Shown: piece after piece, positions 24,657 through 63,946 of the stretch | Numbering within the stretch: the stretch's first letter is position 1 | Layout: each line of letters begins with the position of its first letter | Assembly: GCA_017591395.1 (NCBI GenBank) | Contig: WEDG01004929.1 | Coordinates: forward strand, 1-64,000 | Source of the DNA: Schistocephalus solidus | Taxonomy: Eukaryota; Platyhelminthes; Cestoda; Diphyllobothriidea; Diphyllobothriidae | Direction of reading: 5' to 3' | DNA: 64,000 bases | The notes under the pieces: generated by a model | Database searches by the model: none | The model's input: the letters and a program-made list of their open reading frames with translations, nothing else | What the model was told of the DNA's origin: nothing | Position numbers and translations under genes: made by a program

Positions 24657-24682
24657 CCGTTTTTGGCTGTACTGATTGTTAA

Positions 24683-26170: not shown

Positions 26171-27026
26171 ATTTAATAAAAAGAGTATTTAACTTACATG
26201 GCGGCCTCTTACCTTGGGGCCTTCGTCGGGGTTGCAGTCGGAGCCTCATCTGGGAGATGACGAGGCGGTGATCTGTCCAACCATCGGCATCGCGGATCGC
26301 CTTGGTTACCAGCACGTCCTGTCGATCTCGCCTCTGGACGAGAACATAGTCCAGTAGATGCCAGCGCCGCGACCGAGGGTGCATCCACGTGGCCTTCTCC
26401 CGCGTCGGAAGGCGGAAGAAGGTGTTGGACAGCAGGAGACGGTGTTCCGCACACGTGCGCAGAAGAAGGAGGCCGTTAGCGTTGCAGCTACCGAGACCGT
26501 GGGGACCCAGCACTCCCTGTCAGGCAGCGTGGTTCGTCCCGACGCGGGCATTGAAGTCACCAAGGACAATTAACTTGTCCTCTTTCGGCACAGTCGCCAG
26601 CAAGGCGTGCAGGTCCTCGTAGAATTTGTCCTTCGCCGCATCAGAGCTCGTCATTGGGGGAGCGTAGGCGCTGATGATGGTGGCGAACTGGTCTCCCCGA
26701 AGAGGCAGGCGGAGGCTCATCAGGCGATCATTGATACCCTGCGGCAGACAGGAGAGACGTCCAACAATGTCGTTCCGGATGGCAAAGGCAACACCAGCGT
26801 CGCGTCACTCTGCCTTTTGCCGGCCGCTCCAGAAGAAGGTGTATCCGGCACCCACCTCCTCCAGCTGACCCTGCTCAGAGAATCGGGTCTCGCTGAGAGC
26901 AGCAATGTCCACCTTGTAGCGCGCCAGTTCCCGAGCGACTAGCGCCGTCCTCCGTTCCGGCCGGTTGCTCCTAGGATTGTCTAAAAGGGAGCGAACATTC
27001 CATGCTGCTAGTGTGAGTGGACTCAC
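26151..27026 (-). pseudogene. LINE apurinic-like endonuclease domain
   Basis: One minus-strand frame is broken by two TGA codons (26805-26807 and 26520-26522). It carries LAAWNVRSL at the start, ALSETRF (catalytic Glu), [10 protein letters not shown] and [12 protein letters not shown] near the end, in the order of the exonuclease-endonuclease-phosphatase fold used by LINEs to nick DNA. A one-base shift near 26160-26170 separates it from the RT frame. Confidence 0.8.
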
Positions 27027-35345: not shown

Positions 35346-35401
35346 CTGTGGATGCAATAAATCAGGAAAGCCTAAAAGATGGCTAACTTTAAGATATTTA
35401 C

Positions 35402-35494
35402 ATTGAGACCTGCAGTCGAGCCCCTCAGCCTAACCAGCTCAGAGGACGACAAGTTTTCGTTCTCTCCGAATTCCAGTAGATACGCTGATGCGTC
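35402..35494 (-). CDS. Upstream exon of the helical-repeat gene
   Basis: A 93-nt minus-strand exon between acceptor CTTCCTTTCCAG|GAC (edge 35494) and donor AAT|GTAAAT (edge 35402). It holds 31 open codons, phase 0 to phase 0 (YLLEFGENENLSSSELVRLR). The intron to the main exon is only 56 nt (35346-35401) and both sides keep frame. The codon before it must end in phase 0; the nearest upstream exon I found (38020-38551) ends in phase 2, so at least one exon is missing between them or they are different genes. Confidence 0.6.
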
Positions 35495-45763: not shown

Positions 45764-45770
45764 TATAAAA
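45764..45770 (+). promoter_or_regulatory. TATA box of the cysteine-rich modular gene
   Basis: TATAAAA sits 137 bp before the signal-peptide ATG. An initiator-like TCATCC with its A at 45794 is 30 bp downstream, the usual TATA-to-start distance. The predicted leader of about 107 nt has no upstream splice acceptor requirement. Confidence 0.65.
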
Positions 45771-45900
45771 GGCGAGGCAGTGTCCTACCGATCATCCTTC
45801 GCGTCGTTCAGACGCATCCGGAAATCTAACACTCACAGTCTGCTATTCAGCTAACGAGCAGGCCAACCAGCAATTACCCATCGAGATTTCGCTGCTCTTA

Positions 45901-45995
45901 ATGGATCAGCATAGCCACCAAGGTGTCAATGCCCTGAGGTGGCTACTAGCCCTCCTGCTTCTGAGCATAGAACCCACTAGAAGCTATGCTGGAGG
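45901..45995 (+). CDS. Modular gene exon 1: signal peptide
   Basis: The ATG at 45901 opens 31 codons: a His/Gln-rich start, a hydrophobic core WLLALLLLSI and a likely cleavage region near PTRSYAGG. The donor GGAGG|GTAGGT leaves phase 2; reading on would hit TAG at once. Too short to stand out as an ORF, but the TATA box, start, signal peptide and phase all agree. Confidence 0.75.
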
Positions 45996-48900
45996 GTAGG
46001 TCTCCCTCAAAAATCGTTTGATGTACTGAGGGGGTTGGACATCTCCTGACACGGGGAATGATCACCGTGAGTTAGAGCAACCGTAACAGAAAACCTCAGA
46101 GTTGATCTCCAGTCTTCATCGATAATCCTGTGACAGACAACCTCGCAATATGAATTAATTTTTTTTCTCGAAGAATTCGGACTAACGCCAACAAGTCCTC
46201 GAAAGCTCGACCTTCAAGCAGTGTCCGCGCGGTCACTGTTCTGCGATTGGAGAGTTCACTAGCCAATTGCGTTTATGCATTTATAAGTTAGACTGAAGCG
46301 AAGGCGTTGGTGACTGAATCCTTTCGACTACCCATTAGAGGTTTTTTATAAGGGGCCTAGAAAGGCCCTTTATGCCGAAATAATTGAGCTGCTTCAAGCC
46401 TGTGGGTATTGAGGGCCCGATAAAGGCAAGGTTTAAAGCCTAGACGAAGCTTTCAGGCAGTTGACGTACATGGCTTCTTTTACAAGACGGGAACGCGCAG
46501 TTTTAGGGGCGGGGAAACTAGAAAAACTTCATATTCAGGCATCTTAAAATAGTAATACTTCATTTTTACCGTCCTCCACCCTTGCAGCGTATGCCCACCT
46601 TCGTTTTCCAAAGAAGTCTGTCACAATGGGACTCGGCTGAGAATCAGTGCCATCTACGAACAGATAGCAGGCGGAAAATGCGAACGAAGGCTCAGTTCAC
46701 ACATCCTCCCTGATCTAGGTGAGTCATGCTTTGGGGTCGCCACAACAACTGGGGGTTGAATAGGCGTGAAAATATACTTACCCATCCCAACCCCCCTTTT
46801 GAATTCCGCCCACTTCAAGAATGCCCACCGCCCAGACGCGTGGAGGTTACACCCTGCGTGAACGGCCAAACCACTGAGGTTACCGAAGCCTACCAACTTT
46901 TGGACTGCAAGTGTACGAAGATTCTGCGCAGCCAACAGAAACCCTGTCGTGAGTTTAAATGACCTTCATAAATATAATGCGCCTTTTATAGTGCGTTATT
47001 TATCTACTGTGTGGTTGCGTGTTTCATGTCCCAACTAAGGTCTGTTCAAAGACAAATTGGCCAGTATTCTGGTATATAGCCTTGATTCGGGTTCAGAGGA
47101 CTGAGCTTGTGTTTAGTGTGCCAAACTTTGATCCGTCTTCCAGAAAACAGTAGTAGGATTGGACTCTCAACTATCAGCCTATGCCCCGTTGGATTTTTCA
47201 CCGTTGATGAAACTTATGATATTTATACCATAATAATGAAAATATGTTCTCCAGGCAGCGCCTAATTTTTCGGCGTGCCACATGTGTAGTAAGGTCCTCA
47301 AGTGCGCTCATTATCGTCTCTTTTTGCCTTGTTGGCTGGTGTCACAGTAGTGCTGTACCTCTGTGGGTTTGTGGACATCAAATTACATTGATCTGAAGTG
47401 TTTCGAGTTCATAATTTGGCTTGTAGTGATCCACAGTTATAGATCAGGAGGGTCTCTCGAATTCCTCCTCTACCTGATTACAGTGTTGGACGATGAACTC
47501 CTGTTTTTGGTCGCCATAATGTCCTGACCATTACGTATTATCCTGAAATCAGGTATGCATCCAATGTTTAGCTTTACATTCTTTTGCGTTCGGCTTTGTC
47601 CACATTCCTGTTCGTTATGTAAACTTCGGTAGAACTGGTACACCCGCATTTTCTATGTGCAGACACACCTTCATAGAAGGACAGGGTATCGCCGATACCA
47701 CAGTTTCTTCAAAATCATATTCATTCCCGTACACACTTTTGGACATGGAATCCGACTAAAACAGTTCCAGACTAAACACCAACTGGCCAAGAGAGTCTTT
47801 AAAAGGGGACTGCCAATTTAATCGGCCAGTCTCAGCCGTGCTTGTCATGACTCAGGATTACGGTACACGGCGCGAACTCGTCAGGCCGAGTGGTCCTTGT
47901 CATTTCACAGCAAATATCGCGCTTTTCCTCCTTATCACTGACTGCCTCATTATAATTTCCCAGTCATTAGTCTCGTAGGACACGTAAAATGCCAATTAAT
48001 TTGCTGAAATCTAAAAATCTTTGACTTCCGAGGGAAAAACTACACGAGTACTATTGCACCCGGAATAGGGCCCAACTTTGATTAACCAACTCCCCCCCCC
48101 GTTGTCTCAGTTTCTTAGAAGGAGACGTGAAGCACACATGTGTAGAACCCGTTTGTAGAATCGTAGTATGCGCTTGGTATTCAAAGGATTGAGTGACTCC
48201 TATAATATGTTTTCTCCTTGCTATGCGCACCTATAGGCGACGAAGCCGTTTATGGTGTCTTGAATTATTAGCGGTGCAGTATGTAGACTTGGTCCTTCAG
48301 GCCCGTGGCATTTCAGTAAACGGTAGCCATTATTAAGATCTACTTAAATTATGCCCTTTTAATGTCATAAGCGAGCCAGACACCTGCAGAGAACGCTTTT
48401 GTAGCACTTCAGCATGCGCTTTGTATTCAAAGGGTCCGGTAATCATTACGATCTTTTCTCTCCTGGATATGTGCACCTATAGGCGACGAAGCGTTCTATG
48501 CTGAATTGCATTATTATTTACATCTTCCTTTTTTGCATATCGCAGCGTGCAAACCGTGCGAAGTTATCCGCAGGGAATGCGATCCAACCACCCACTCTCG
48601 CGCGATCATCACAAAATGTTATTTACACACGGCCGAGGGTGAATGCAGGCCCGACCTGAAGGTCACTTATGAGCCATGTGGAAGTAAGTTCTCCCCAAGT
48701 AGTCTCAGTGCCCCTAAAAAAATAGGCAAAACGACAACTAGCTCTTCAGGAAAATAGTCAGCTCGTTGAATCATAGTCATTTGTAAACGAATAGCTGAGT
48801 TGATAAAAAATTCACTGGGAAGTGGCGTTGCAAACTAGCTCATCACCAGTTTGTACATTTCGTGGCTTTTTACCAGAAGAAATAGTGATGTAGTGCATGC

Positions 48901-51900
48901 CGGAACCAGGGACTTGTGAACTAGAGTAGTGGAGACTGTCGTTAGGTTGAATATATTAAGCCATGCTAAGGTGACACTTACCCATTTTACATGATTGCGT
49001 GACAAAATACAAGCGGTATACCTTACCTTTGGGCTTTCGTGTAGAACGCACGCAGACAGCCACATAACGACAATCAGTAGATAATCGCGAGGTTTTAGCG
49101 ATGAAGAGAAGGAAGGAGATGCAATGACCGTTCCTGGAGAATGGAAGGGATGTGAGGGGAGTATAAGCGTCTGGATCTACAAGTAACATCTCCTGCCTGG
49201 CATCTGTTTTCTAAGTCCCACATAACACTCCAAACAAGTTAGATAGAATTTAAATGCGCTCATAATGGGGTTTAGGACACGGTCGATCAAAAATCTTAGC
49301 CTACAATCCTTTATTACAGTTTACTTGTCATTATCGCCAACAGAACTTGTGATACTTTTATCTTTACTCGAAACAAAAAAAAATAGAATGCGAGAGCAAG
49401 CTGATAAAAAGAGCTGGACCATGCGATTTCTGCAAAGGACAAAGGGAAATCCAGTTGTTTACGACTTTCCGGGAAGAAGGAGGCCAAAGAAGATGTCTGA
49501 CTGCCAAGCAGGTCATCCAGGAGCCGTGCGGTAAGTAGACATGCTCCCGCAGCACCATAAAATTCCAGGAAACTACAATCTACATTAATGTCTACTCATT
49601 TAATGTTAGTACTGTAAGTAGGAGTTCAACAGGATGTGAAATCCGCCGCCTATTCTCGCTAAATTTTGTTCTTCTGAAGAAGTGTTGTCAACCTTTAGGT
49701 TACAGAACAAGACTCTATGTATGCTGGTCTAAGGCAACTTTGAACTGTAGCCATAAGTCTACTTTTTTTAGAATAGGTAACTTCTTTCGTAGAACAGCGA
49801 ATGTAACCATGCCGGCAGTAGGTCAGCGAAGAAATATATTGCCTTGTTTAATTTACAAGGAAATTAGTGCGCGATCTCTGAGTAACTCCTTCAGAAAAAC
49901 ATTTCAGGCTTGGTCCAAAATTTGATTGAAATATTTGAGTTGAAATCAATCAGTCACTGCGGAATAACCATGCAATAGTCACAAGCTGCCAACAGGCAGT
50001 CAGTAGTATAAACTGCATAATTATTTACCACACTCACAACACGGGAAGTCATAACCCATTCTTTATTAATTTGTTTTCCTGTCCTTTTTTTACTAAAAAG
50101 CATGCAAGCAAGGTGTTTGGTCGAGGAAGGTCTGCATAAACAAAGACACGATTGTGCGAAAGCTGATTCATCGTTCCCAGATCTCCTGTTCCATTTGCCA
50201 GGCCAAGAAATTCCAGATATTCGACAAAAAAATACGTGAGTTACTGCCTCTTTGTTTTCTGTGTACGAGCCCTCGGGGAAAAAATTGGTCACCTTATTGG
50301 AAACACGATTGTTTTTCTTAGGATGCCGGGGGAGAGTTGTTGTCCGTCAACCCTGCAGACTGGACGAAACCACTGGATACTGGTATCAGATTGTTCAAGT
50401 AATCAATGAATATCCGGAGAGCTGCGAGTGCAAGAGGTCAACTCATTCAGTCCGACAGATTTGTGGTGAGTTTACTGTCACTACTGAATAAGTTTTCTGC
50501 TCTCGCTTCCTTCGGTCTGCGACCGGCCTTTCCCGCGGTTCTGTGTGTGTGCGTGTGTCTCACACACATGCGAGATGTAAGCTTTTCAACCCCCTGTTGT
50601 GTGAAATCCTGGTGCTTGTGTTTGGGGGGCCAGGTCGTGTACGTAGTACACGTAGACGAGGTCACCAGCAGCTGCGACCACTTCCGCATCAGACAACTGA
50701 CCGGCTCGGACAGCGGTTTGACTGTGGGGGTGGGGGAAAGAGTGAGGTCGACAGCTCAGCGCATGTTTCTCACTATAAACAATCTGACGCGCTTGAATCT
50801 ATCACGGTGCGCTAAATGCCGTGGCTTGGAAGGTTGCCAACTGACGGGATAACTCGGACCGCTTGGTCAGCCAAATGTGTGTTTTGTGTGGATTGGTTGA
50901 CTGGCGGACTGAGAGTCAGGCTGCAATGGCTCCTTCTTAATGTGGCCTTTATGGCACTCCCACTCCGTGGGATCCGAGTCAGGTGTTGTGGCACTCTCAG
51001 GAGCGGCTACGGCCGCGCCAGCCACCTGCGCCCTCTCCTACCTCCGCTCTTCTTGACTCTGTCATGAAACCGGGCTCAGGTGGGAGAGGCGAAGAGAGTG
51101 CGGTAACGTTAAGCGCCGCGGTTGGAAGGTTGCCAACTGACAACTACACTCAGACCTCGTAGTTAGTCCAATGTGTGTTGTGTGGAGTGGCTGACTGCTG
51201 GTCTGAGAGGCTGAGCCCCTTCTAAAGGTTCTTTTTGAATTTGCCCCTGCCCCGTTCTGCTCAGGCTGTCCACGCGAGGTGAAGCGAGAGACATCCTGCT
51301 ACGCGCAAACTCACACCCTCTTCACAAGAGTGACCAGCTACCGATTGGACAGAGACGAGGCCTCGGGGCGGGCCTTCTGCCAGCCAGTAGTGCGCATTGA
51401 ACGCAGCCCCAGTCCCCCTTGTCCACCACCAAACGCAACCACAGGGGAGCCTCGGTACACCTGCGACCACAGTACATGCGAGAGGTCAGCCACTACGAAC
51501 GAATGGCGGCTGGATGGTTGTCAGTGCAAGCAGGTCAACCTGCGTAGGCCCGTTGGATTCTGTTGTAAGCACCTTTCCTACGTCCTACTTATCTTACTCC
51601 GTGGATAATTTATCCCGTTGCTACCCTCGTCTTATTCATCAAACAAGTGAAGGTATTAGTAAGATCTCATAATGCTTTTTGATCCCTCCTTGCAATTGAA
51701 AAAAAACGTAAGTCAGAAATGAATGTTTCCAAAGTTGCACATCTTTGTGTTGCCTGAATTACCCCGTTGCATGAAAGAAATCTTTCATCAGTTTATTTGA
51801 ACAATCCTTAATTTTCCTCCATGCTTACTTATTACTATTTTTGAAAGTACGTTCATTGATCGGGTTACGGGACATGCGCATCCGTTTACGCCTTGCGGTT

Positions 51901-54900
51901 CAATCTATATTCTTTGTAGGCAGTCACATAACGCCCGAAAATAATAAAGGGCCCTAGATGAATCCCCAGGATGCAGCAGATTGGAGGACGCACTTCCCAC
52001 GATAGATAGGTAGCTCAAGGTTAGAATAGGTTAAAGATAGGGAACTTCGCGAGTTGAACGGCCATCAGCCAGTACACAGTTTGATTACGGAGACAAAATG
52101 GCAACCTACTTGTTGCTTCCTGTGCCCAAGAGACACATTTCCCAGCTGTGGAAACTTATTACCGGAATGTTTGAAACTTCAAAATAAGTGCTTCTTTATT
52201 GTTTTAAGCGGTGTAACAAGTTACATTTCTTATATTATCGTTTGCAGGCTGCCCTAAACCTCGGTCAGAAGTCTCCGAGTGCATTGACAGGTCACGCACC
52301 GTTCGCCACATCTTCTTCGAACTCTTCAATGGTCAATGTCAGCGACATGTCACGATTTCCGAAGAGGCTTGTGGTAAGTACTCGTGGTAGCTCGTGTTCC
52401 CTACTCTGCCGCTAGCGCAGAAACAGATACGCGTCTACTGAAAATGCACCTATATCTTTATAGGCGATTTGAGCTCCAAGGACAGTTTCAACTGCGACGA
52501 GACAACTGGTATGAAGATTTTTACCACTGCTCGCTGGCAACATCTGCCAAGTGGAGGGAGTGTCGAAACGATCCAGATTCGACGCATACCAACACGTGAG
52601 TCCTGAAGATATTTAATGTTGGGCTGCTGACCAGCCAAAACCATTTCTTAGAAAAAAACCTACCACAGCACTCATCTTGATGCTGAGACTATTTCTGTGG
52701 GTGTTTCACGAAACAAAGTCTGATCGAGGGAGTTTGTATAATCAGGGAAATCTCAGCCATTGCCTTTCACCTGTGTTTTAGTCTCTCCTAGGGCAGAATG
52801 GGTATCCTTCGATCAAGGGAGACATAGTATCGAGGAAAGGGGTGATCGAAAGGTCATTTATAAGACCCTAGAACGAATCTCCTATTAACCACCCGTATTC
52901 CGTCATGTAACCAACTGCAGGTAGGCCAGATCGGCAGCCACGATTTAATCCTTACGTCGAATATTTCTGCTAGCCGTTGGCAGGATATTAGCTCATAAAG
53001 CAGCGTGGAACTGGGTGATTAACAGGAAGGGAATGAAACTCCTGTCTTCCATGCTGTGGATTGGGCAGTGACTGACTAAGAGCCCCAATTAGTCAGAAAT
53101 AGTCACTCTCATTTCACTTGATTTTCTTTTTACCAGTTCATAATTACTGCTCCTTATCGTTCGACCAACTATGAAGGCTCATATCCGAAGCTTCAATAAA
53201 AAAAACCTCGGCAAATGACAGTTACTCATCCTTGCTTCTTAGTTTGGCTTTTTATACTAGAAAAACGCATTATTTCAACGTCTTGAGTATACTGGACCAG
53301 TTCAGATATCTCATGTACATTCTTCTGTCTACAGTTTGCCAGGGGGTTGAGGTGGTGTCCGTGTCCAAGTGCCGAGAAGAACCCGGCAGCAATCGTCGAT
53401 TCCGCAATATCCTGATCATCACGCGAGCTCGAGAGGGTTGTGAGTGCGGGCCGCCGGTTTCCAGAATAATCACGGAGGCCTGTAGTTGTGAAGACGTGGA
53501 CAGTGGTGAGCTTGTGGAAGCTGGAACGCAGATGAAGGTGCAGACTGGCTGTCGTCCTGAATGCAAGCCCGGCTCAGATATATGCGGTTCTCTACAGTGC
53601 AAGAACATTCAGCAATGGTTCAAGATGGAGTTCATTAATGAGGAGGAGGACGTTGCCTTATTCAAGAACAATAGTCGTCCTCCGAGGTGCCGAAGGTCCC
53701 TGATCCGACGTGAGGTCTCCGACTGCTGTAGGTTTCAAAATGTGTCTTTTTATAAAAGATTCCCACACATACTGCCTGTGTGACTTTTCTTACTTATAAA
53801 CACACACGCACACAGGCTGTCCTACGACACCGGTTATCAAAAGGGAGTGCGATGCCTCTGGGAAAAGATGGCTTGTGAGGAAAACTGAATCGTATTTTGA
53901 CAGTGGTCTCTGTTCGCAGTCCGTGGTCACCTGGAGCGAACCCGTGAACTGTTCCAACGGTTTTGTGGGACGCGAGATCGGAGAACGTCGCCCAGACGGA
54001 ATGCAGGAAGTACGTCTTATCTTCGAGGCCGTCGAAGAATGCCGTTGTGAACGCTACCTGCAGCGTATAGACTGTCCATGGCGTAAGTATGATAACCCTG
54101 CTTCCTGTTCACCAAACGCCCTGCTGGAGTCACTGAGACAGAGAGAGGGCTAATGGTTTGCTCTTTATGTCCGCGTTTCAAATAGGATGCCCGCCACCTG
54201 AGACACGGACCTACTGCGATGCTAACTTAAATGAGACAGTCTTCGAAGTCGTTAAGCACGCGCTCATCGGATGCAAGTGTCAGCGACAAGTTCAACGTGT
54301 TATAAGCAGAGCAGGTGAATCGAAAACCATGTTATCATTAAACTTACATCTGGATGATTCCGCAGGCAAATATTGACACAATTCTGTCGCCTCATTTTTT
54401 AGTCTGTCCAAACTATTCCATCGTCGTTTCGCGGGAATGCTCTAAGGAAACTGGCCTTGAAACCGTCATAACCAAATCGATCGTCCAGGAGGGCTGTGAC
54501 TGTAAGGTTGTCATGCGCAAAAAAGAAGCCAAGTGTGGTAAGTAGCTTGACTATATCTGTTTTCCTTAAGAAAATTCAATTTCGATGTACTCGTTATTAT
54601 CGAGTTTCGCCTGTAATTTACAGCCTGTCCGCCTACCGAGCGCGGTCCTATGCTCTGCAATCGGGTGACCAATCGCATGGAGCAGAAAGTCAAGCAGTGG
54701 ATTCTGATTGGAGGACGGTGTCAGCCAATCGAGGATGTTGTTGGAAGACCAACTATCTGCGCCGATGAGGCCAACGTTGAGAACAGCACCGTCGCCACAC
54801 GCATGGTTTGCAATGAGAAAACGGGCTGGGGACAACTGACGCGGCCCATTTGGAGCGTGGAGAATTGCAGATGTGTTCGAAGTGTGAAAGTCCTTCGAGA

Positions 54901-56010
54901 AGGACCTTGTCGTAAGCCGTCCATCAGGACTTGGACATCAGTTTCTCCCCTTCCACTCCAGATGTTTCCCATTCAAAGCAACCTTTCTGTCTCTAGGTTG
55001 TCCACCCCCAAAGAGGTCGATTCAGTGCGATGCCAGCAAGGGAAGATTGGTTATCCGGACTGCAGTGTTTGAGTTAAACAAAGCGACCCTCCACTGTTCT
55101 GCTCATATACAGACAACTGAACGGAAAATAAGTAAGCTCTACTTGTTCTTTTCCTCAAAATGAAAGTACTTGAAAATTTGGCTGGATTCGTAGCCTGAGT
55201 TTGAGAATCTTCATACTTCCTGCCATCTTGCTGGGCCGGCGGTTTTCAGTGGATATTTACCAGGAAGTTGATATGAGCGTGGACTTATTTATTTTAACAG
55301 ACATGTGTTTCGACTGTAGTCTTTCATTTCCTAAAAGGCTGCCCTCAACCAGAGGAAATCGTCTCACCCTGCAACACAACCCTCCGCAAACAGAAGGTCA
55401 CAAAGATTACCTACAGAGTCGAGGACTGCAGTTGCAAACGAACCGAACACACCTCAGTCCTACCATGCGGGTGCCCACCTTCCACGAAGATTATTTCCAG
55501 TTCCCCCAAATGTGACTCGGAACGAAGTGAACGCATTTTTGAGACTAGTCGGAGGGAGTGGCGCGATAATCTGCGCGCCTGCGTTGAAGTAAAACAAACC
55601 CTGCGTATTCCCGTCGGTGAGCTGACTTACAGTGTGCTGTCTTATGATCCATTTCAATTACTGCCAGGACGACACCTAACGCGAAATGCACTTTCTGATT
55701 TTATCCAGTCTGCAAACCACACGTCGCTTACCAACTCGGGAAGTGTGTTAACGGAACCAAACTCCTGAAAACACGCATACTTACCCCGGATATCAATTCT
55801 TGCAGGTGTCTGGGCAGCGTAAAAATCCAAAGAATTTCTTGTGGTAAGTCATTCTCCACGTAACTTGGATGAAAATGGCTAAGATTAAGTAGAGGGACGT
55901 CTTGGAGAGATATTCCCACAACACCCACCCTCTTCTTCTTCTTCTTCTTCTTCTTCTTCTTCTTCTTCTTCTTCTTCTTCTTCTTCTTCTTCTTCTTTTT
56001 CTTCTTCTTC

Positions 56011-56042
<32 letters not shown>

Positions 56043-56096
56043 CTTCTTCTTCTTCTTCTTCTTCTTCTTCTTCTTCTTCTTCTTCTTCTTCTTCTT

Positions 56097-56127
<31 letters not shown>

Positions 56128-59100
56128 ACCTTCCCTCCTTGTCAATTCTCTCCTTCCCCCCTTCATACATTCTCCTCCTAAATACTCTCCTTGTTATCTA
56201 GCAGCTCCTTCCCATTTGTCGCTCTCTTTATCATCGATCTACACAGTTCCTTTCTCTGCACATAATCCTCGTCTCTGCTGAACTCACTATCTTGTTACTT
56301 CGCCCACCTCTTCCTCCCCGTCCAGTTACACCCTCCTTCGTCTTCACTCTAACTCTGCGTGCATACAAAAATATCGTGGGAAGGGTAGTAACCGATCCGG
56401 TTTGTAGACATACCTGTCCCGTTTTGCCTTGGGGTTCAGTCTAGAAACTCTATAAGCAGTCGCATGATGACTAGGAATATAGGCAGGACACTAAAATGGT
56501 GAGTTCTAGCTTATTAAACATCGTCAGCCAGTTCGAGTTGTTTGGGATTCGAACCCGACTTCATCAGCCAGTCGGTGTTCGGCACTATGCTGGACCACTG
56601 GGCCACGGACCCGCTGTAATGAAGGTTGCGGTCGTGGCTCAGTGATACAGCCTAAGATTCCGGATGCGAGTCACAGGTCACCAAACTCCGAAGTTTGATA
56701 TGGCTGACTGAAAACGGCTAAAAAGCCATAAATGGCCACTTCAATCTTCTTGGTCTTCGTTCGTGCTCTGATCCAAGTTTGGCGACATGCCTATGCTCGT
56801 CTGTGGCGGCGCCAACAATCTGCGCCCTCTCCCGCCTCCCGTATTCTTGACTCGCTCATAACACCGGGCCCAGGTGCGGGGGGATAGAGAGTGCGGTAGA
56901 TGCAGCGCAATTCTACTCTCACTATAACCATATTCGTGCAAAAGTCCCCGTTTCTGGTCCACCTTACTCCGGGACACACGGTGGACCTCCTCGGATACGA
57001 CAATCGACCTAACTACATATATGAATGACCCCGAAGTCCCGTGATATTGGCGTAACGTAGATGGAAGCAGAGTGGCCGGCAATCAGGAATTGCGTGTTTG
57101 TGGGAGTTCTAGACCAGGACCTGTAAGGCGCAAGGGAAACCCCTCTGTTTCATCATGCAATTAGGATAAAATAGTGAATACCTCAATCTCCCATGCATCC
57201 ACTGTCGCAAACAACAAAGTCTGAACACAAGACTTAACCGATGGGGCCTTAAAATGACTGACCAAATGGAAGTGGGTTAAAATCTAAATCTTCTCAGTTT
57301 GGCGTCAGGATATGGTTGGCTGACGGTGGCTGATAAGCTGAAAATGTTCATCCCAGTATCCCAGGGCTAAATTTCTTTATATCCAAAGCACCTTCATGTG
57401 TTTTTTGCTACCATAAATCCATATTCTTATAGCTTGCCCCCCAAGACGTCTGATAATCGGCCGATGCGCCACCGGTGCCTCGACAGCTCTGGCAGTGATC
57501 TTCATACGGAACTGGGATGAACGCCTGGGTCGATGCATCGTGGTTGATCGCTACCAGAAAAAGGCTATTTTGCACTTGTCCCGTTGCACGAGAGGAAGCC
57601 TTCTGCAAGGCCGGCGCAATGGAAATAAAGGCATGCCCAAAACATACATTTTGCTAAGCTTTTTATTTTTCTCAGAGTGTAATGTGCAAGCTTGAGGTAA
57701 ATTCTTAGGCATAGGCCTTTTGCAGTTCGGTTCGAAAGTTCACATCAACATTTGAACTGAAACCCATTGATGGAGTTATTATGTAATATTTACAAGTTAC
57801 TAACAGAGCATCAGTAGTATACAACTATTGATTTATTCACCACACTGGCAGCACCGGTGCTAAGTGAAAGCCCGCGCACGTGTTTCACAGCTGCGAGAAA
57901 TCTGGTTTATCACTGGTTTCCTCGGCGTTTCTCGTGAATTGTCTGCTATATTCTCCCTCCAAAAATGTTAAACATTATAGTTTCTTCAATTCTTCGGAAC
58001 AAACGCCTTCAGGCTTTGTTCGAAAGCTGTTATGAATATTTTGAAGACTGTAATTGAAAGTGTTTTTTTTTTATTCTTTCGATTTAACAGAAAGTCTCCT
58101 ATGAATTGTACGCTGAAAACTATGGTTGTCGACGCAAGGAGGAGGTTTATCGAGTTCGGTCGCAATGTCGAGCACAGACGAGGGAAGAGCGTGGTGAATG
58201 CAATCGTAAAACCTGCAAGCAAACCTCGGCGGTGTATGCGCGCACGTTTGATCCGAAGACTTGCCAGTGTGTTTGGACTTTGCAGGCACGCAGGGAATGC
58301 TCCTGTTGTGGTAGGTTATTGCCCAGAGTTATTTTTTTCAGCCGACTGGGTAGACATTTTCACGATGCTGACGTCGTCTTTTTGATCACTGTCTTTCCAT
58401 ACATAGGCTGCCCAAAAAGAAGCATCAAATTCCAGTGCTTTAACAACACAATTATCTACGCAACCGTTGATTACTTCATCCCCAAACAACCGAGCTGCCA
58501 GCTTGAATGTCAGAGAATGCGGAAAGTGTTCAAGAAACATGCGGGTAGGTGCAGCAAACAGTTAAAACCTATTAATTTTTACGACCAATCACTGCTGATG
58601 GCTTGGCGACTAGAACTCAAGAAATTTACTCAACTGGAAATGATTGCAGCTCAGTGCTCTGAACCACAGCTTTTTCTCATTTATGCCCAGTCACCTGGTC
58701 TATCAGTTGCCAAATCGACTGTTACCAATAATGCGAATCAAGCAATATTCACACGCGAGGATAAATTGTCACTGTTCATTTTGACTTCGCAGTACAAATG
58801 AGCTCCAATCAATGGCTTATACTGTAAAACACTACTGAAATAAAAAATTCCGCCATTTAACTTACGATGCGATCAGAAAGTAATGGGATCTTCTGTACTC
58901 GCTTAGCTGGCAGATACTGCCACGGTATGCCAGAAGTAGACCACTTGCCCTTAAATAGCGAGAGCGTGTTTTTTTTTTCTGAGTACATAATTTCTTGATC
59001 CGTCATGGCCCGCAAGCAACTAGCATTGATCTCAGTAATTGCAGACTTGTGCAAGTTTACTTTGACATGGTCATGATTATTATATTATTACTATCTGTAT

Positions 59101-62100
59101 TATTATAAGGGTTATATAATTATTATATTATTTAAATTGTGTATAATTGTTATCAATATCATATTATTGTCACCACCACTATTATTATCACTATTATATG
59201 AATACTGTCTTAGCGTGTAAAGGGACGAAGCTGTTGGAGAAACCAACATGGTCAGAGTGCGACATGTCCACTTGCACCCAGCAACTTTCCGGAGTTGTAC
59301 CGGTTTTGGAGAATTGCCGTTGCAAATATGTGAAGAAAATATTTGCCGAACGCAAATGCTGTAAGTAACAGACAAACATAAATTCTTTTTCCTGTTCCAA
59401 GATTAATGCAAGTTGAATCAGTAAACCCACTTCCGCTATCAAACTTTTAGGCTGTCCGGCTGTAAAACAGGAAATTGAAGTCTGTCGTGATGGCAAACGA
59501 CTCAGTGAAAGAAGGACGCTGGTGTTGGACAATTTCGAGTGCAAACAAAAGATTGAATATGTACCTAAAGATCAAGGTAGGTAAAACAGGCATAACAAAT
59601 TCTGTTTTATGCATCTGAAACCTACATACAGTAAGTGGTATACCCCATCAAGCATACTAAAATTCACAAAAAACTTGCAAAACACATCCACCAAAACCTC
59701 TGAGTAAATTTTCCAAACTTGAGCAACTTGGAAATGAAAAGTATACACAAAGTAATATTTAGGCTGCATGGATATGCAATTTTTTAAATAAAGATGAAAT
59801 GCAAGCAACGTGGAAAGTTGCGCCAGATGAGGCAGCCTTATTTTGAAATGCTACCGAGTCAGTTCACAGCAAGCAGACAACTAAAGAAGACGGCAAATGT
59901 GCGGAAAAAAATTCAAAAAAACGTTTTTTTAAATAATTTCTGGGTTAAATAATATCCAATAATTAATATAGTAGGCAGTATAGTAACTAGTCGGCTGGTT
60001 GAAATTTTCCAAATTCATACGCAGAATTGCGAACGAAAACATTTTACTTCCGGACGGCTGGATAAGTGGTTTTCCGAAACTTAAATGCTTTGCTTGGATT
60101 CCCTAATTTGGGAGTTCGCCGGAATAGACGTTATAATTAGCATATATATGCATATCACGTGATTAACTACTAACTAAACAAATGACATATTGTCAACGAA
60201 GGTAACTAAAAGTATACCATTCTCCGTATATGAGAAGCATTTTCTCCTCGATAATTACCTTGTTCTTTCTGGCAACCTTGAAAGTAACCGAGACTCAAAA
60301 TGCCCCTAAGTTTCAGCATATATATGTGTTCAGATGAATTTGCTTATTACTTGGTTCTTTTCGAACAAAGACTGTCATAGGGCGCCAGAAATAAAGGCCG
60401 GAGATTGTGACCCTCAAACCTGCAAGAGAAACATCTACGAGATTTCATGGAATCGGGGGCGCAGTGACTGTAGATGTCATCCGGTTCAACGGCTTGTCAA
60501 CGAGGAGGACTGCTGTAAGTCTTACCCTTTCCACTTTGCCTCATGACAGGAAAACATGCCTGTCCAATTGTCCATAGAAGGCTTTAAAATATTGTCCAAA
60601 GCGAAGTCTGTCATTGCACAATAGTTATTTTGCCTCCCTTGGTAGACAAATTTTGCAGGTCATCGTGACCTTTGCAGGTCATCGTGACCTTTTCGCAGGT
60701 CATCGGGACCTTTATGAAAAGTAGCTGTGTCAGAGTTCTGCCAACAAAGTGTATCGTGCTGCCAGTACTGAGACTATAACCCAGACAGGCTTCACCGATT
60801 TCGTGCCGTCTCATGACAAAGCCACGGGTAGTCCGGGTCATCAGTAGTTGCCTTAGCGTGCCCTACGTTGTTTCTGGTCCGCGCTTCAATTTGTGACACC
60901 ACGTGACTCTACCTGGTGTTCAATGAACCCGAAGTTACGATTGCACGTAGACAGACGGTCGCTAACAGCGATGCACTCGATAAGACGAGTTCCAGGAATT
61001 AGTTGGCATAAAAGAGACTAAAGTGCTCGATCGGGAACGTTATCAATCTAAGACAGAAGTTACGAGCATTGCAGTGTTCATGGGATGGAGCGATTAAAAA
61101 AAGTAGCACTCACCTTCACCGCAGACGGTCTTCTGCGGTGCGATGACTGCCTGCATCCGAGTCGTTAACTGTGGCAATTTAATTGTGAACGTTTATGAAT
61201 GGTGTGATACTTACTCAGCTATTTGGCCTAGCAGGACTGTCATCTAGAGCAGTCTTTACATGTGCACTCTTCGTCTGATTAATTCCTGTGCCCGAGTAAG
61301 GGTTTGGCGTTGAATAGGGAGCGTTGAACTGGTATTGCTAAATAGACAATACTCTTTTCCAACCGTGAAAGCTCATACGTCTTAGCTAGAACAACTCAGC
61401 TAGACGCAGGGAAGCTCTGCCGTTACTAACGAAGCTTCAGAGTGGTCATAGGCGAAGCTCTGTTAAGTCGTAGTCCTTCCTTATCGAGCGACAGATCTTG
61501 GGTGTTATGAGCAGCCGCACGCCCAACTGGTTTCCAGTTTAACAATCCACCAACGAGTCCCCGGAACAGAGGTAAACAGCCAAGGCGGAATAAAATGGCA
61601 CTTGTATATAACATGCAGAAAAAAAAAGAAACTTCCAGGAATAACGGCTTACGTCCTTTGGAATGTACAAGGTCGGACTGATATTCGAACAATCAGACAT
61701 TGTCCCTTTGCGGCTAGTTTCTCAGTTGGGCTTCCAACTCATCTCATTGGTTGGGTCAACCTCAAATCGTTTCGAGAACTTGCACGTTATTAGCACGCGG
61801 ACGGCGTGTAGGCAAATCAGTTAGGGAGCAGTTTCGAATTCCAACTCTACTTCGTGAAGTTTTTGTGCGGCAAAAATAATAAAGTCTATTGTTGTTAACC
61901 TCAAAAACTGCCAGCCTCTTGGATGTCCGCATCATGACCGCGTCCTAACAAGGAGTTCAGTTTGTCTGGGGCAAGCGTTCCCGCTCCTACTGGAAGGGTA
62001 ACTTTAAGAGCCCATAAAAAGGTCTCCTTTTGATTAAAAATTATCCTCAAACATGTTACCTCATGAATTCTTAAAATTTATCTTGAACTGACAGATGTGT

Positions 62101-63946
62101 GTTCTTTTACGAAAGGTTGTCTCCCCGACCCCCGTCCCAAGTCCCTCTGCGTCGGAACATGCAAGGTGGAGATCCACACACATTCCAAATTTGACAACGA
62201 TCAGCGACGTTGCATCAAGTACCAACAGCTCTACCGAAAGTGTCCCAGTGAGTGCAGTTTCCCTTTAGTAGCATCCGGCCATTAAAAGGGCCATGTAAAC
62301 TGATCGCACTTGAAGGTACAACAGCTTTAAATTATTTTTAAATTTTATTTTATTTTATTCTATTTATTTATTTATTTTTATGTATTTATTTATTTTATTT
62401 TATTTTTAACTCTCCCTCTCCCCCCCTCACCCCCAGCATGCCCTCTAAAGTATGAGGAACCTGGCCATTGCGACAGAAAGAACACCTGCTTGCAGCCAGT
62501 CAAAGAGATCAGCTACACGATTGAAAACTGCGGATGTGTGCCACAGATCAGCTCGAAAATGAAACCTTGTTGCTGTATTGATCCGCCTCAGGAACCTCCC
62601 AGATGTCTTGAAGATGAGCATGTTCTTGTGTACAAGACTGTGACAATGGAGTAAGTGCCCAGCGAGGACATCAGGATCTGTGCACTTGCTTGTAGCAATT
62701 AACTCCATCTTCTGATCACTCTCTTTCCCGAAATCCTAGGTTTCTTCACGGCCAATGCATTCCAAAGACGCGAGAGGAATTTGTGCCAGTAGTCTGTCCT
62801 CCAAAGGATGGCTTTGAGAACGACCCGTCGTCGACACAGGTGGGGACTTGCGATCCAAACACCTGCCACAGAAAAGTCGTGGAGATTAGCTGGCATCTGA
62901 GTGCATGCAAATGCGTGCCAAGTCGTCAGGAGAGACTGGAACCCTGCTGCTGCATGCACATTCCCAGGCGGGTCAAACAAATCTGCCACAAGGACGGCAG
63001 CATGACAAAGGTGGGATTTTAAAAAAATTGCTACTTCAATTTAAAAACAGTAGTACTTGGTCCCCACTGCTCAAGTAGCTCATGGTTGTACAGCAAACAG
63101 CGTTACGTAACTGTCCTCCTTCCATTCTACCTAAACAGTTGATACGCTACTCCAGGCTGGTGGGCGACAAGTGTTTGCCAGAGATTCTGACCGAGCAGCA
63201 ACCCCGAAGCGCATGTCTTCCAGTCAGGATCCAGCCGATTGGCCCCTGCAACCAACACACCGGACGACAGCCAATTGAAATCAACCGATATGAACTCGAT
63301 CACTGCCACTGTCGTGTTGTGTCCACTCAAAGGAAGGACCGTATCTGCTGTAAGTACATATACGTATGGAATTGACGGGATAGTAAGGAAGAAGGGGGGA
63401 GTGAGGCGTGCCCATTGGTGTTAATTGGATCCTTGTTATTTTCAACAGCCTGTCCAGAAGGCGAGAAAAACAGCTCGCCCTGCAATCCATCCACCTGTCA
63501 ACAGGAAGTGACTGAGACCCGATACCTGGCCGTTAATGGTTCCTGCCTACTCCTGCCACCGGTGAAGTCTCTTCAGCCCTGTTGCTGTCGTCAAGGCGAG
63601 GTTCCCTACTCTATCAGGCGCGAATGTGACGCCGACTCGGGTTTGCTGACCGAGATCCACACCTTTGGCCGATTCGATAAGAATCTGCGTCAATGCCTGC
63701 CTACAACCCAGCGACGTGTTATCCAGCCACCAGGTACGTCCACGCCTTTCAAGCAGATCGAAAATTGTGACAATCTTTATTGCTTCCACTGTCTTCTCTC
63801 TGCAGATTGTGAGGAAAAACGGCACGTGAAACGGGGCATTTGCAATAAGCTAACCGGTTTTGCCACGGATGTGCTCTTCAAAAACCAGTTCAACAAAGGT
63901 TCCTGCTCCTGCGAAATGGTGAAGAAACTGGTGCCACGTAAATGTG
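45901..63946 (+). CDS. Giant secreted cysteine-rich modular protein (gene overview, 3' end outside window)
   Basis: Twenty-eight exons (listed separately) join into one open frame of 5,125 nt, about 1,708 residues, and continue past the right edge. A signal peptide starts the protein. Each following exon encodes one to three modules of about 42-50 residues. A typical module has Cys-Pro near the start, Cys-Asp/Asn about 10 residues on, a polar stretch with Thr, then Cys-x-Cys and a final Cys just before the donor. 24 of 27 splice junctions are phase 1, so exons can be duplicated or skipped without breaking frame. Cys-Cys pairs form at many exon joints. No protease, lectin, Kunitz or EGF signature fits. 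An extracellular matrix, tegument or secreted structural role is inference from the signal peptide and disulphide-rich repeats. Introns hold SINEs, LINE pieces and a long CTT tract. Confidence 0.8.
46588..46718 (+). CDS. Modular gene exon 2
   Basis: Acceptor CTCCACCCTTGCAG; the first base completes Gly from exon 1. It reads VCPPSFSKEVCHNGTRLRIS and GGKCERRLSS: a short three-Cys module (Cys-Pro, Cys-His-Asn-Gly, single Cys) with no Cys-x-Cys and no terminal Cys. Donor CTAG|GTGAGT, phase 1. Confidence 0.8.
46820..46948 (+). CDS. Modular gene exon 3
   Basis: A long-type module: CPPPRRVEVTPCVNGQTTEV, LLDCKCTKIL and QQKPC. Five Cys in the standard pattern, phase 1 to phase 1 (donor TGTC|GTGAGT). 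Confidence 0.85.
48120..48510 (+). repeat. Local direct duplication in intron 3
   Basis: About 48155-48265 (GTAGTATGCGCTTGGTATTCAAAGG ... CGCACCTATAGGCGACGAAG) recurs at about 48405-48495 (CAGCATGCGCTTTGTATTCAAAGG ... TGCACCTATAGGCGACGAAG). A tandem-type duplication about 240 bp apart, just upstream of exon 4; no coding function seen. Confidence 0.65.
48546..48683 (+). CDS. Modular gene exon 4
   Basis: Acceptor GCATATCGCAG. It reads CKPCEVIRRECDPTTHSRAI, then TKCYLHTAEGECRPDLKV and YEPCG. It has an extra Cys two residues after Lys-Pro and spaced single Cys instead of Cys-x-Cys. Phase 1 to phase 1. Confidence 0.85.
49387..49530 (+). CDS. Modular gene exon 5
   Basis: After a weak acceptor (AAAAAATAG) the exon reads CESKLIKRAGPCDFCKGQRE, FTTFREEGGQRRC and KQVIQEPCG, with donor GCG|GTAAGT in phase 1. 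The length is 2+141+1 nt. The reading frame differs from the longest local open frame, so the exon is only visible through module pattern, splice sites and phase. Confidence 0.75.
49840..50050 (+). repeat. Unclassified interspersed repeat, copy 2
   Basis: Shares TTTAATTTACAAGGAAATTAGTG, TTCAGGCTTGGTCCAAAATT, CACAAGCTGCCAACAGGC and GCATAATTATTTACCA with the 37620 copy. In an intron of the modular gene. Confidence 0.65.
50322..50465 (+). CDS. Modular gene exon 6
   Basis: Acceptor TTTTTCTTAG. Long-type module: GCRGRVVVRQPCRLDETTGY, NEYPESCECKRS and RQICG. Phase 1 both sides (donor GTGAGT). Confidence 0.85.
50560..51240 (+). repeat. LINE 3'-UTR fragments in intron 6
   Basis: The blocks GCATCAGACAACTGACCGGC, CACTATAAACAATCTGACGC and GCACTCCCACTCCGTGGGAT belong to the 3' UTR of the 22-27 kb LINE, here in plus orientation. 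The open frames in this stretch are repeat-derived. Confidence 0.65.
51265..51564 (+). CDS. Modular gene exon 7 (two modules)
   Basis: Acceptor CCCCGTTCTGCTCAG. A 300-nt exon fusing a short three-Cys module (GCPREVKRETSC ... GRAFCQPVV) and a long module (CPPPNATTGEPRYTCDHSTC ... GCQCKQVNLRRPVGFCC). It carries a possible N-glycosylation site (Asn-Ala-Thr). Donor GTAAGC, phase 1. Confidence 0.85.
52248..52373 (+). CDS. Modular gene exon 8
   Basis: Acceptor ATCGTTTGCAG. It reads GCPKPRSEVSECIDRSRTVR, LFNGQCQRHV and SEEACG. One Cys replaces Cys-x-Cys. Phase 1 to 1, donor GTAAGT. Confidence 0.8.
52464..52595 (+). CDS. Modular gene exon 9 (degenerate module)
   Basis: Acceptor TATATCTTTATAG and donor ACAC|GTGAGT keep phase 1 on both sides and the frame is open, but only one Cys remains (SFNCDETTGMKIFTTA). 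The Cys-Pro start, Cys-x-Cys and terminal Cys are gone. Either a relaxed module or an exon on its way out. Confidence 0.65.
53335..53727 (+). CDS. Modular gene exon 10 (three divergent modules)
   Basis: Acceptor CTTCTGTCTACAG. The largest exon, 131 codons: VCQGVEVVSVSKCREE, AREGCECGPPVSRI, EACSCEDVDSG, CRPECKPGSDICGSLQCKNI, an acidic stretch (NEEEDV), and CRRSLIRREVSDCC. Cys spacing is looser than elsewhere. Donor GACTGCT|GTAGGT, phase 1. Confidence 0.85.
53816..54082 (+). CDS. Modular gene exon 11 (two modules)
   Basis: Follows an 88-nt intron ending in a CA tract (CACACACGCACACAG). Short module CPTTPVIKRECDASGKRW ... SGLCSQS, then NCSNGFVGREIGERRPDGMQ ... EECRCERYLQRIDC. Possible glycosylation at the NCS sequon. 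Phase 1 both sides. Confidence 0.85.
54186..54314 (+). CDS. Modular gene exon 12
   Basis: CPPPETRTYCDANLNETVFE, then LIGCKCQRQVQRVISRAG. Cys-x-Cys kept, terminal Cys missing. Phase 1 both sides; donor GCAG|GTGAAT. Confidence 0.85.
54403..54537 (+). CDS. Modular gene exon 13
   Basis: Acceptor CTCATTTTTTAG. CPNYSIVVSRECSKETGLET, then QEGCDCKVVMRKKEAKCG: a clean five-Cys module. Donor GTAAGT, phase 1. Confidence 0.9.
54624..54911 (+). CDS. Modular gene exon 14 (two modules)
   Basis: Short module CPPTERGPMLCNRVTNRMEQ ... GGRCQPIED, then long module ICADEANVENSTVATRMVC ... VENCRCVRSVKVLREGPC. Phase 1 both sides; donor GTC|GTAAGC. Confidence 0.85.
54997..55131 (+). CDS. Modular gene exon 15
   Basis: Acceptor TTTCTGTCTCTAG. 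Short three-Cys module: CPPPKRSIQCDASKGRLVIR, then TLHCSAHIQTTERKI. Phase 1 both sides; donor ATAA|GTAAGC. Confidence 0.8.
55338..55616 (+). CDS. Modular gene exon 16 (two modules)
   Basis: Long module CPQPEEIVSPCNTTLRKQK ... VEDCSCKRTEHTSVLPC, directly followed by short module CPPSTKIISSSPKCDSERSE ... NLRACVEVKQ. The eight cysteines show the long/short pairing clearly. Donor GTCG|GTGAGC, phase 1. Confidence 0.85.
55709..55843 (+). CDS. Modular gene exon 17
   Basis: Acceptor TGATTTTATCCAG. CKPHVAYQLGKCVNGTKLLK, then INSCRCLGSVKIQRISCG. Five Cys, phase 1 both sides, donor GTAAGT. Confidence 0.9.
55931..56126 (+). repeat. CTT/AAG microsatellite (about 196 bp)
   Basis: Nearly uninterrupted CTT triplets with two small interruptions (CTTTTT near 55995 and CTACTT near 56010), in the intron after exon 17. 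The poly-Leu and poly-Arg frames it creates are artefacts. Confidence 0.95.
56390..57365. repeat. SINE and LINE fragments in one intron
   Basis: 56390-56620 (minus) and 56625-56745 (plus) are SINE copies facing each other through tRNA-like heads (GGGTTCGAATCCC on the minus strand; GGTCGTGGCTCAGTGATACA on the plus). 56810-57010 is a LINE 3'-UTR block (GATAGAGAGTGCGGTAGATG). 57240-57365 is a further SINE body. Confidence 0.6.
57433..57695 (+). pseudogene. Module exon without donor: skipped, dying or alternative terminal exon
   Basis: Acceptor CCATATTCTTATAG, then two bases and a module: CPPRRLIIGRCATGASTALA, DERLGRCIVV and LHLSRC. Where the donor should follow Cys the sequence is ACGAGAGG with no GT. 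The frame runs on through an AATAAA (57624-57629) to a hydrophobic tail (ILLSFLFFSECNVQA) and TGA at 57693-57695, and this tail falls in a copy of the 37620 repeat. Exons 17 and 19 are phase-compatible without it, so it may be skipped. Used as a last exon it would give a truncated protein. Confidence 0.55.
57660..58060 (+). repeat. Unclassified interspersed repeat, diverged copies 3 and 4
   Basis: 57660-57870 follows the 37620 copy in order (GAGGTAAATTCTTAGGCATAG, TTGCAGTTCGGTTCGAAAG, ATCAGTAGTATACAACTATTG). About 57955-58060 repeats part of it (TCTTCGGAACAAACGCCTTC, AGGCTTTGTTCGAAAG). It contributes the stop and tail of the 57433 exon. Confidence 0.5.
58095..58310 (+). CDS. Modular gene exon 19
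   Basis: The acceptor AACAGAAAG gives two bases then SYELYAENYGCRRKEEVYRV, SQCRAQTREERGECNRKTCK, TCQCVWTLQARRECSCC. The nearer CAG would put a stop in frame, so the second AG is chosen. Ends TGTG|GTAGGT, phase 1. Confidence 0.75.
58407..58544 (+). CDS. Modular gene exon 20
   Basis: Acceptor CTTTCCATACATAG. CPKRSIKFQCFNNTIIYATV, then PSCQLECQRMRKVFKKHAG. Terminal Cys missing. Donor GCGG|GTAGGT, phase 1. Reading through the donor stays open for about 85 more codons. Confidence 0.8.
58839..58844 (+). terminator. Possible intronic poly(A) signal after exon 20
   Basis: AATAAA lies 38 nt after the TGA (58799-58801) that ends the exon 20 read-through frame. It could define a short isoform. In AT-rich intron sequence such a hexamer can also arise by chance. 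Confidence 0.35.
59214..59360 (+). CDS. Modular gene exon 21
   Basis: Acceptor ATACTGTCTTAG. CKGTKLLEKPTWSECDMSTC, then LENCRCKYVKKIFAERKCC. Long type with the extra Cys-x4-Cys seen in later exons. Donor GCT|GTAAGT, phase 1. Confidence 0.85.
59451..59576 (+). CDS. Modular gene exon 22
   Basis: Acceptor ATCAAACTTTTAG. Short three-Cys module: CPAVKQEIEVCRDGKRLSER, then NFECKQKIEYVPKDQG. Phase 1 both sides; donor CAAG|GTAGGT. Confidence 0.85.
60371..60514 (+). CDS. Modular gene exon 23
   Basis: The acceptor TTTTCGAACAAAG is weak. CHRAPEIKAGDCDPQTCKRN, IYEISWNRG, DCRCHPVQRLVNEEDCC. First clear copy of the CDPxTC ... EISW subtype that dominates the 3' part. Donor GCT|GTAAGT, phase 1. Confidence 0.8.
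60657..60711 (+). promoter_or_regulatory. Triple inverted-repeat hormone-response-like sites
   Basis: AGGTCATCGTGACCT occurs at 60657-60671 and 60676-60690, and a one-mismatch form AGGTCATCGGGACCT at 60697-60711. Each perfect copy is the AGGTCA palindrome with a 3-bp spacer bound by steroid-type nuclear receptors. They lie in the intron after exon 23. Regulatory use is inference; a small tandem duplication could produce the same array without function. Confidence 0.45.
62116..62247 (+). CDS. Modular gene exon 24
   Basis: Acceptor GTTCTTTTACGAAAG. CLPDPRPKSLCVGTCKVEIH, then QRRCIKYQQLYRKCPS. Donor CCCA|GTGAGT, phase 1. The preceding intron (60515-62115) is long and could hide a further exon. 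Confidence 0.75.
62330..62409 (+). repeat. AT-rich TTTA/TTTTA low-complexity tract
   Basis: About 80 bp of TATTT/TTTAT units directly before the pyrimidine tract and acceptor of exon 25. Confidence 0.85.
62437..62650 (+). CDS. Modular gene exon 25
   Basis: Strong acceptor CCCCCCTCACCCCCAG. CPLKYEEPGHCDRKNTCLQP, EISYTIENCGCVPQ and MKPCCC, then the first half of a short module (CLEDEHVLVYKTVTME). The exon ends in phase 2 (GA|GTAAGT), splitting the short module across the intron. Confidence 0.85.
62740..63010 (+). CDS. Modular gene exon 26
   Basis: Completes the split Glu codon. Finishes the short module (FLHGQCIPKTREEFVPVVCP), carries a full EISW-type module (GTCDPNTCHRKVVEISWHLS; CKCVPSRQERLEPCCC) and begins another short one (QICHKDGSMTK). 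Ends in phase 0 (AAG|GTGGGA). Confidence 0.85.
63139..63349 (+). CDS. Modular gene exon 27
   Basis: Acceptor TTCTACCTAAACAG, phase 0. Finishes the short module (LIRYSRLVGDKCLPEILTEQ), then a long module (CLPVRIQPIGPCNQHTGRQP; LDHCHCRVVSTQRKDRICC). Donor GCT|GTAAGT, phase 1. Confidence 0.85.
63449..63733 (+). CDS. Modular gene exon 28 (two modules)
   Basis: Acceptor TTATTTTCAACAG. CPEGEKNSSPCNPSTCQQEV and SLQPCCC, then a short module IRRECDADSGLLTEIHTFGR ... LRQCLPTTQ. Possible glycosylation at Asn-Ser-Ser. Donor CCAG|GTACGT, phase 1. Confidence 0.85.
63806..63946 (+). CDS. Modular gene exon 29 (last in window)
   Basis: Acceptor CTTCTCTCTGCAG. CEEKRHVKRGICNKLTGFAT, then KGSCSCEMVKKLVPRKCG. 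Donor GTG|GTATGT in phase 1 shows the gene continues beyond 64000. Confidence 0.85.

Follow-up and report, generated by a model that had tools for sequence, protein, structure and literature searches.

A 64,000-nucleotide stretch of the genome of the cestode Schistocephalus solidus (contig WEDG01004929.1; hereafter the window) carries a giant cysteine-module gene on the + strand at positions 45,901–63,946. The gene comprises 30 exons and ~1,798 codons, and the encoded chain contains 173 Cys residues (9.6% Cys). Exons were found by reading the + strand and scoring splice sites; 28 of them were joined as one chain, and exons 19 and 20 come from splice-site scoring and a Dibothriocephalus latus protein. 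A first-pass annotation of the same DNA had described 28 exons and ~1,708 codons, which was close and falls somewhat short of the present model. Comparison with relatives points closely to a secreted extracellular protein of ~4,000 residues, of which the window would hold the leader and roughly the first 1,800 codons. It is solid as a gene; its function is unproven.

Seven related proteins were compared with the window chain, all of them gene predictions rather than transcripts as far as the sources show: P0001 from D. latus; P0002 and P0003 from Rodentolepis nana; P0004 (SprV_0501751100) and P0005 (SprV_0501750900) from Sparganum proliferum, both hypothetical proteins; P0006 (Ciccas_003938) from the monogenean Cichlidogyrus casuarinus; and P0007, an unplaced Joint Genome Institute (JGI) protein. 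P0004–P0007 were retrieved with the joined R. nana pieces as query. The three protein searches depend on 5-residue words in common and restrict length, and do not show absence elsewhere.

P0001 matches 10 window exons at 79–97% identity and P0004 matches 15 of the 30 at 73–97%, in the same order and from the same start, its prediction being without the other 15; in all, 23 exons have a 73–97% counterpart in one or the other. P0005 matches exons 29 and 30 at 87% and 97%. The counterparts of exons 5, 6, 7, 13, 14, 16 and 25 are confined to R. nana, and those of exons 7 and 16 to the long P0002 alignment. The window chain is colinear with P0002 (residues 30–1330 vs. 25–1343; 36.6%) and with P0003 (residues 1349–1798 vs. 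2–475; 37.5%), whereas out-of-register alignments mostly give 19–27%, indicating that R. nana and S. solidus have kept individual modules at the same places. Judged from these alignments, the independent gene predictions from D. latus, R. nana and S. proliferum agree with the window gene model, confirming the gene first annotated here, which we take to be the orthologue of SprV_0501751100. P0006 and P0007 are looser relatives that share the same half-modules (see below); they align colinearly to one another across 1,961 positions (22%), and their alignments to the window chain reach just 19–27% with register shifts. The earlier suggestion of a lineage-specific component thus has only loose support: four named flatworm species (three cestodes and one monogenean) account for six of the seven proteins, and the seventh is the unplaced JGI protein. 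These sequences constitute a real, old protein family of parasitic flatworms that is little annotated.

P0004 and P0005 have close locus tags on one contig, and two long stretches of them are 90–94% alike. A lysine methyltransferase-like domain closes P0005, which could represent a duplicated locus or a model joined wrongly. P0007 has 2,157 residues on a 6,732-base JGI contig and contains a PAN domain and, judged by eye, a leader peptide.

The modular build first described is borne out, and the repeating unit is a half-module. A profile hidden Markov model (HMM), iterated from seven typed half-modules over the eight chains, yielded 220 aligned halves and a 44-residue consensus; a profile of this kind had been proposed for a search of all metazoan proteomes. 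The joined window chain gives 34 matches, weak and partial ones counted, in keeping with the "about 30 or more" modules first estimated; as the HMM was partly trained on this chain, the count is descriptive and not a test. P0004 gives 61 matches. Typical A-type halves have three core Cys at columns 1, 11 and 32, to which typical B-type halves add columns 30 and 43, making five, and long B halves have further Cys at columns 16 (CDxxTC) and 44 (CCC tail). In the window the two types tend to alternate, neighbours differing at 23 of 31 places (44 of 5000 shuffles are as good); the corresponding values are 36/55 in P0004 and 32/44 in P0006, and alternation is within shuffle range in P0001 (8/11) and P0007 (20/32). 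Of 27 halves with Cys at column 16, 25 also have the CCC tail, as against 1 of 107 halves that lack this Cys; the counts are drawn from paralogues and therefore overstate significance. This suggests a disulfide between columns 16 and 44 at one end of the sheet.

Fold prediction, also proposed earlier, gives three-stranded halves. AlphaFold2 models of a four-half segment of P0001 orthologous to exons 26–28 (mean predicted local distance difference test score, pLDDT, 90.1; predicted template modelling score, pTM, 0.53) and of the exon 14 half alone (pLDDT 90.3) both show three antiparallel strands per half, a short first one and then two long ones. Because the pTM of the four-half model is low, the orientation between halves is left open, and no disulfide bond was read from the models. 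All eight chains are basic (isoelectric point 8.3–9.1) and contain 8–10% Cys (7.5% in P0005), and Lys/Arg make up 29–44% of half-module columns 31, 34, 35, 37 and 39.

At the 5′ end of the gene, a TATA-like sequence, TATAAAAG (45,764–45,772, + strand), lies 137 bases upstream of the start codon and corresponds to the TATA box first noted; TATAAA occurs 20 times on each strand of the window, so that TATAAAAG is weak evidence alone. The sole ATG in 45,790–45,905 is that at 45,901. Exon 1 (45,901–45,995) consists of the start codon and a hydrophobic leader peptide, recognised by eye rather than with a signal-peptide program, and matches the start of P0004 (73% over 30 aa); this leader closely implies that the protein is secreted.

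The remaining exons, all on the + strand, are given with identities to the named proteins from exon-wise comparison unless stated. Exon 2 (46,588–46,718), entered in phase 2, holds the first module (P0004 78%, P0002 35%), followed by a B-type module with a weak acceptor in exon 3 (46,820–46,948; P0004 90%, P0002 60% over 25 aa) and single modules in exon 4 (48,546–48,683; P0004 93%, P0002 45%), exon 5 (49,387–49,530; weak acceptor; P0002 56%), exon 6 (50,101–50,235; weak acceptor; P0002 40%) and exon 7 (50,322–50,465), exons 5 and 6 being absent from the P0004 prediction and exon 7 lying within the long P0002 alignment with no exon-wise P0002 match. Exon 8 (51,265–51,564; P0004 87%, P0002 37%) contains an A+B pair, exon 9 (52,248–52,373; P0004 95%) an A-type module, exon 10 (52,464–52,595; P0004 97%, P0002 48%) a Cys-poor module, and exon 11 (53,335–53,727; P0004 91%, P0002 34%), a long exon, diverged modules. 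Pairs are found in exon 12 (53,816–54,082; P0004 96%, P0002 38%), exon 15 (54,624–54,911; P0004 83%, P0002 38%) and exon 17 (55,338–55,616; P0001 84%, P0004 79%). Between them lie B-type modules in exon 13 (54,186–54,314; P0002 38%, not in P0004) and exon 14 (54,403–54,537; P0002 61% over 36 aa; the half folded alone) and an A-type module in exon 16 (54,997–55,131), which, like exon 7, falls within the long P0002 alignment and has no exon-wise P0002 match.

Exon 18 (55,709–55,843; P0001 84%) is a B-type module. Exon 19 (57,433–57,630), a module, and exon 20 (58,091–58,310; P0001 87%, P0002 38%), the latter entered in phase 0 and holding a module end and a B-type module, are followed by A-type modules in exon 21 (58,407–58,544; P0001 88%) and exon 23 (59,451–59,576; P0001 80%, P0004 75%), with a B-type module in exon 22 (59,214–59,360; P0001 85%, P0002 53%). 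A long B-type module with a weak acceptor set by reading forms exon 24 (60,371–60,514; P0004 89%, P0003 50%), and an A-type module with a weak acceptor exon 25 (62,116–62,247; P0003 50%). Exon 26 (62,437–62,650; P0001 79% over 34 aa, P0003 34%) holds a B and part of an A and ends in phase 2; exon 27 (62,740–63,010; P0001 90%, P0003 41%) holds the rest of that A, a B and part of the next A and ends in phase 0; and exon 28 (63,139–63,349; P0001 94%, P0003 41%) completes the A and adds a B. Exon 29 (63,449–63,733; P0004 and P0005 87%) has two half-modules and exon 30 (63,806–63,946; P0004 97%, P0003 45%) a B-type module, beyond which the gene runs on past the window.

Phase 1 is used at 25 of the 29 exon joints, and 23 of the 30 exons are phase 1 at both ends; the bias first reported (24 of 27 joints) therefore stands with a changed count. 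The chance of 25/29 is 6e-9 if phases are equal (p = 1/3) and 4e-7 if p = 0.4, so that such a bias is hard to get by chance. A repeat scan (≥60 bases, ≥60% alike) detected microsatellite and intronic repeats only and no duplicated exon, from which it follows that the modules were duplicated long ago. A TCT microsatellite of 65 copies (55,931–56,126) lies in the intron that follows exon 18.

The weakest joint of the model is that of exons 19 and 20. Exon 19 runs in frame for ~42 codons (P0001 97% over these first 42 aa) and is then broken: the D. latus protein shows the rest of the exon in another frame, its sequence continuing in a frame that the window copy lacks, and the end of the exon, inferred from P0001, implies a non-canonical donor. 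The break could stem from the assembly or be a true lesion. A lesion would fit a decaying copy, a pseudogene with a working family copy elsewhere in the genome, and the two Sparganum models on one contig, 90–94% alike over long stretches, are in line with duplicated copies; but all 29 remaining exons are open and have usable, if sometimes weak, splice sites at both ends, 23 exons keep 73–97% identity to P0001 or P0004, and a fault in the assembly may account for the break; decay is very unlikely.

The remainder of the protein can be read from P0004, which has 4,053 residues. Its match to the last window exon ends at residue 992, leaving ~3,000 residues and confirming that the gene is still open at the window edge. 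P0004 and P0005 extend to a C-terminus with a VWA domain, a part that the window does not reach: Pfam detects VWA at 2650–2824 of P0004 (E 2e-20; DxSxS metal motif at 2655) and in P0005 (E 3e-20). PAN_1 (PF00024; cut-off 21.4 bits) is found near the C-termini of P0006 (25.8) and P0007 (22.3) and, below cut-off, in P0004 (18.5). ShK (PF01549; cut-off 20.9) is matched in two of seven ShK-like stretches, both in P0004 (23.8 and 19.9 bits), and the match above cut-off is the last 48 residues of that protein. PAN and ShK were seen only with cut-out C-terminal pieces and not in scans of the whole proteins at E up to 1. P0006 and P0007 have four ShK-like stretches by eye, and Pfam finds no ShK in these and no VWA in either protein. 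UniRef names P0006 a ShKT protein and P0002 a VWFA protein. Leader peptides are read in the window chain, P0004 and P0002, the last with its hydrophobic peak at the N-terminus; the P0004 C-terminal stretch has no strongly hydrophobic anchor, no 19-residue window of P0004 exceeding 1.44. A VWA domain with DxSxS, followed by a PAN-like and probably ShK-bearing C-terminal stretch, is thus present in P0004 and would be expected in the window gene.

The modules score below cut-off for every Pfam family, in agreement with the first-pass annotation; the latter's view did not extend to the distinction of A and B halves, to the faint resemblance to midkine/pleiotrophin C-domains or to the VWA, PAN and ShK domains further downstream. 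P0003 bears the UniRef name Trypsin Inhibitor like cysteine rich domain protein (TIL). Many secreted disulfide-rich arrays are inhibitors, and the name would fit a multi-headed protease inhibitor; yet Pfam TIL is absent from the window chain (exons 1–18 and 21–30, in three pieces) and from whole P0001–P0007, and its sole trace is an E 0.79 match, below cut-off, in one 47-residue C-terminal piece of P0007, so that an inhibitor role is highly improbable. The Pfam scan of P0002 and P0003 finds neither VWA nor TIL.

The best Pfam match of the half-module consensus is PTN_MK_C (PF01091), the midkine/pleiotrophin C-domain, at 14.6 bits (E 0.042), in register and below the 25.3-bit gathering score; the doubled consensus reaches 17.3 bits, and 1 of 64 single halves is matched at E up to 10 (best E 0.099). 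According to two papers, these heparin-binding C-domains contain three antiparallel strands and two disulfides (PMC3267162, PMC9363672), and W69 of midkine, at domain position 8, is a Trp conserved across the thrombospondin superfamily (PMC3267162). Their Cys spacing in PDB sequences, C-x9-C-x21-C-x9-C, is within one residue of C-x9-C-x20-C-x10-C in the half-module, a comparison that uses the consensus, single modules varying in length and the A type having no fourth Cys within the half. Three antiparallel strands, as predicted for the half-module, an in-register CDxxTG and a PC end are also alike, whereas the extra B-type Cys and the tandem array in a 4,000-residue protein are not, and the conserved Trp is present at its column in 0 of 142 halves.

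Of 2000 Cys-fixed shuffles each, 2 (PTN), 4 (Mdk1), 17 (Mdk2) and 109 (human MK) score as well or better; of 4987 composition decoys, 17, 18, 32 and 271, respectively, score as well. With held-out HMMs, true halves have medians of 26.1 (19 halves) and 26.8 (27 halves), compared with 4.3–9.4 for midkine and pleiotrophin. A PDB profile search with the half-module misses midkine, and structure matches to the midkine-type fold (2n6f/8voi) are weak and not top-ranked. Given the score below cut-off, the missing Trp, the PDB profile search without midkine, the weak structure matches and the far higher scores of true halves, the half-module is not assigned to the midkine/pleiotrophin family. The C-domain is nevertheless the nearest lead, with weak in-register similarity, and the half-module may work like it even if not filed there.

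As a whole, the data are probably best explained by a disulfide-stiffened extracellular scaffold made of a secreted, ~4,000-residue chain with half-modules as its main building block. This reading rests on a chain that would be secreted, basic and stiffened by disulfides, that strings together dozens of small sheets and that carries binding-type domains at the distal end. Disulfides would stiffen a long extracellular filament or bead-string, which would scaffold matrix or glycocalyx; the third strand, rich in alternating Lys/Arg, would offer many weak sites for sulfated polysaccharides, as predicted from charge; and VWA, PAN and ShK would bind protein or sugar partners. Both the scaffold role and polysaccharide binding are putative. 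A place in the tegument, suggested in the first-pass annotation, is neither favoured nor disfavoured by these data. A bolder proposal, tentative and rather doubtful, starts from an undescribed domain family distantly akin to midkine/pleiotrophin C-domains: flatworms would have multiplied it into a giant, polyvalent filament that binds glycosaminoglycans, and this filament would form a basic layer, crosslinked by disulfides, of their matrix, glycocalyx or hard parts.

The leader peptide and high Cys content (9.6%) could also belong to a protein released into the host to act on its cells, the role suggested for P-ISF, a cysteine-rich glycoprotein of Spirometra; the Sparganum genome paper refers both to secreted unknowns that have expanded and to the cysteine-rich P-ISF (PMC8166898). 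P-ISF is likened here by description and not by sequence, however; ~4,000 residues with VWA, PAN and ShK would suit matrix proteins better, and the in-place conservation of modules between R. nana and S. solidus argues against fast host-driven change. Host-directed action is therefore unlikely.

Cestodes and monogeneans both bear hooks, and the family is found here in cestodes and a monogenean. Together with 8–10% Cys in the eight chains (7.5% in P0005), this would agree with a matrix protein of a disulfide-hardened hard part such as larval hooks or sclerites, embryophore or eggshell. The searches do not exclude trematodes or free-living flatworms, VWA and PAN would be unusual for a sclerotin-like matrix, and a search for papers on hooks and keratin listed nothing pertinent; a hard-part role is quite unlikely.

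Elsewhere in the window, an open frame on the + strand (9,398–11,071) contains a CASC3/Barentsz eIF4AIII-binding domain (Btz, E 1e-13) and is likely an exon-junction-complex gene. On the − strand, 23,082–26,185 holds two long open frames, one with a reverse transcriptase domain (RVT_1, E 6e-29) and the next with C2H2 zinc fingers, which looks like a non-long-terminal-repeat (non-LTR) retrotransposon, the class being guessed; 33,483–35,429 is a 649-codon open frame with no Pfam match at E up to 0.01.

The extracellular scaffold proposed here concerns tapeworms of medical interest, in which a gene of dozens of exons encodes a secreted ~4,000-residue protein whose main building block is unmatched by Pfam and whose relatives are so far named in the sources just by stray flanking domains or as hypothetical. 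The half-module profile lets the family be found and compared across flatworms and raises the question of midkine-type domains there, and the protein is a candidate constituent of the matrix or the surface coat of flatworms, both of which are poorly known. Giant modular extracellular proteins that combine VWA with small Cys domains include matrilins, hemicentins and von Willebrand factor. Unlike these, the chains scanned have no Pfam match to EGF, Ig, VWD or VWC, and the repeat fits no Pfam family; like them, the flatworm protein would be secreted and built of modules on phase-1 exons, with VWA and disulfide-rich repeats in one chain.
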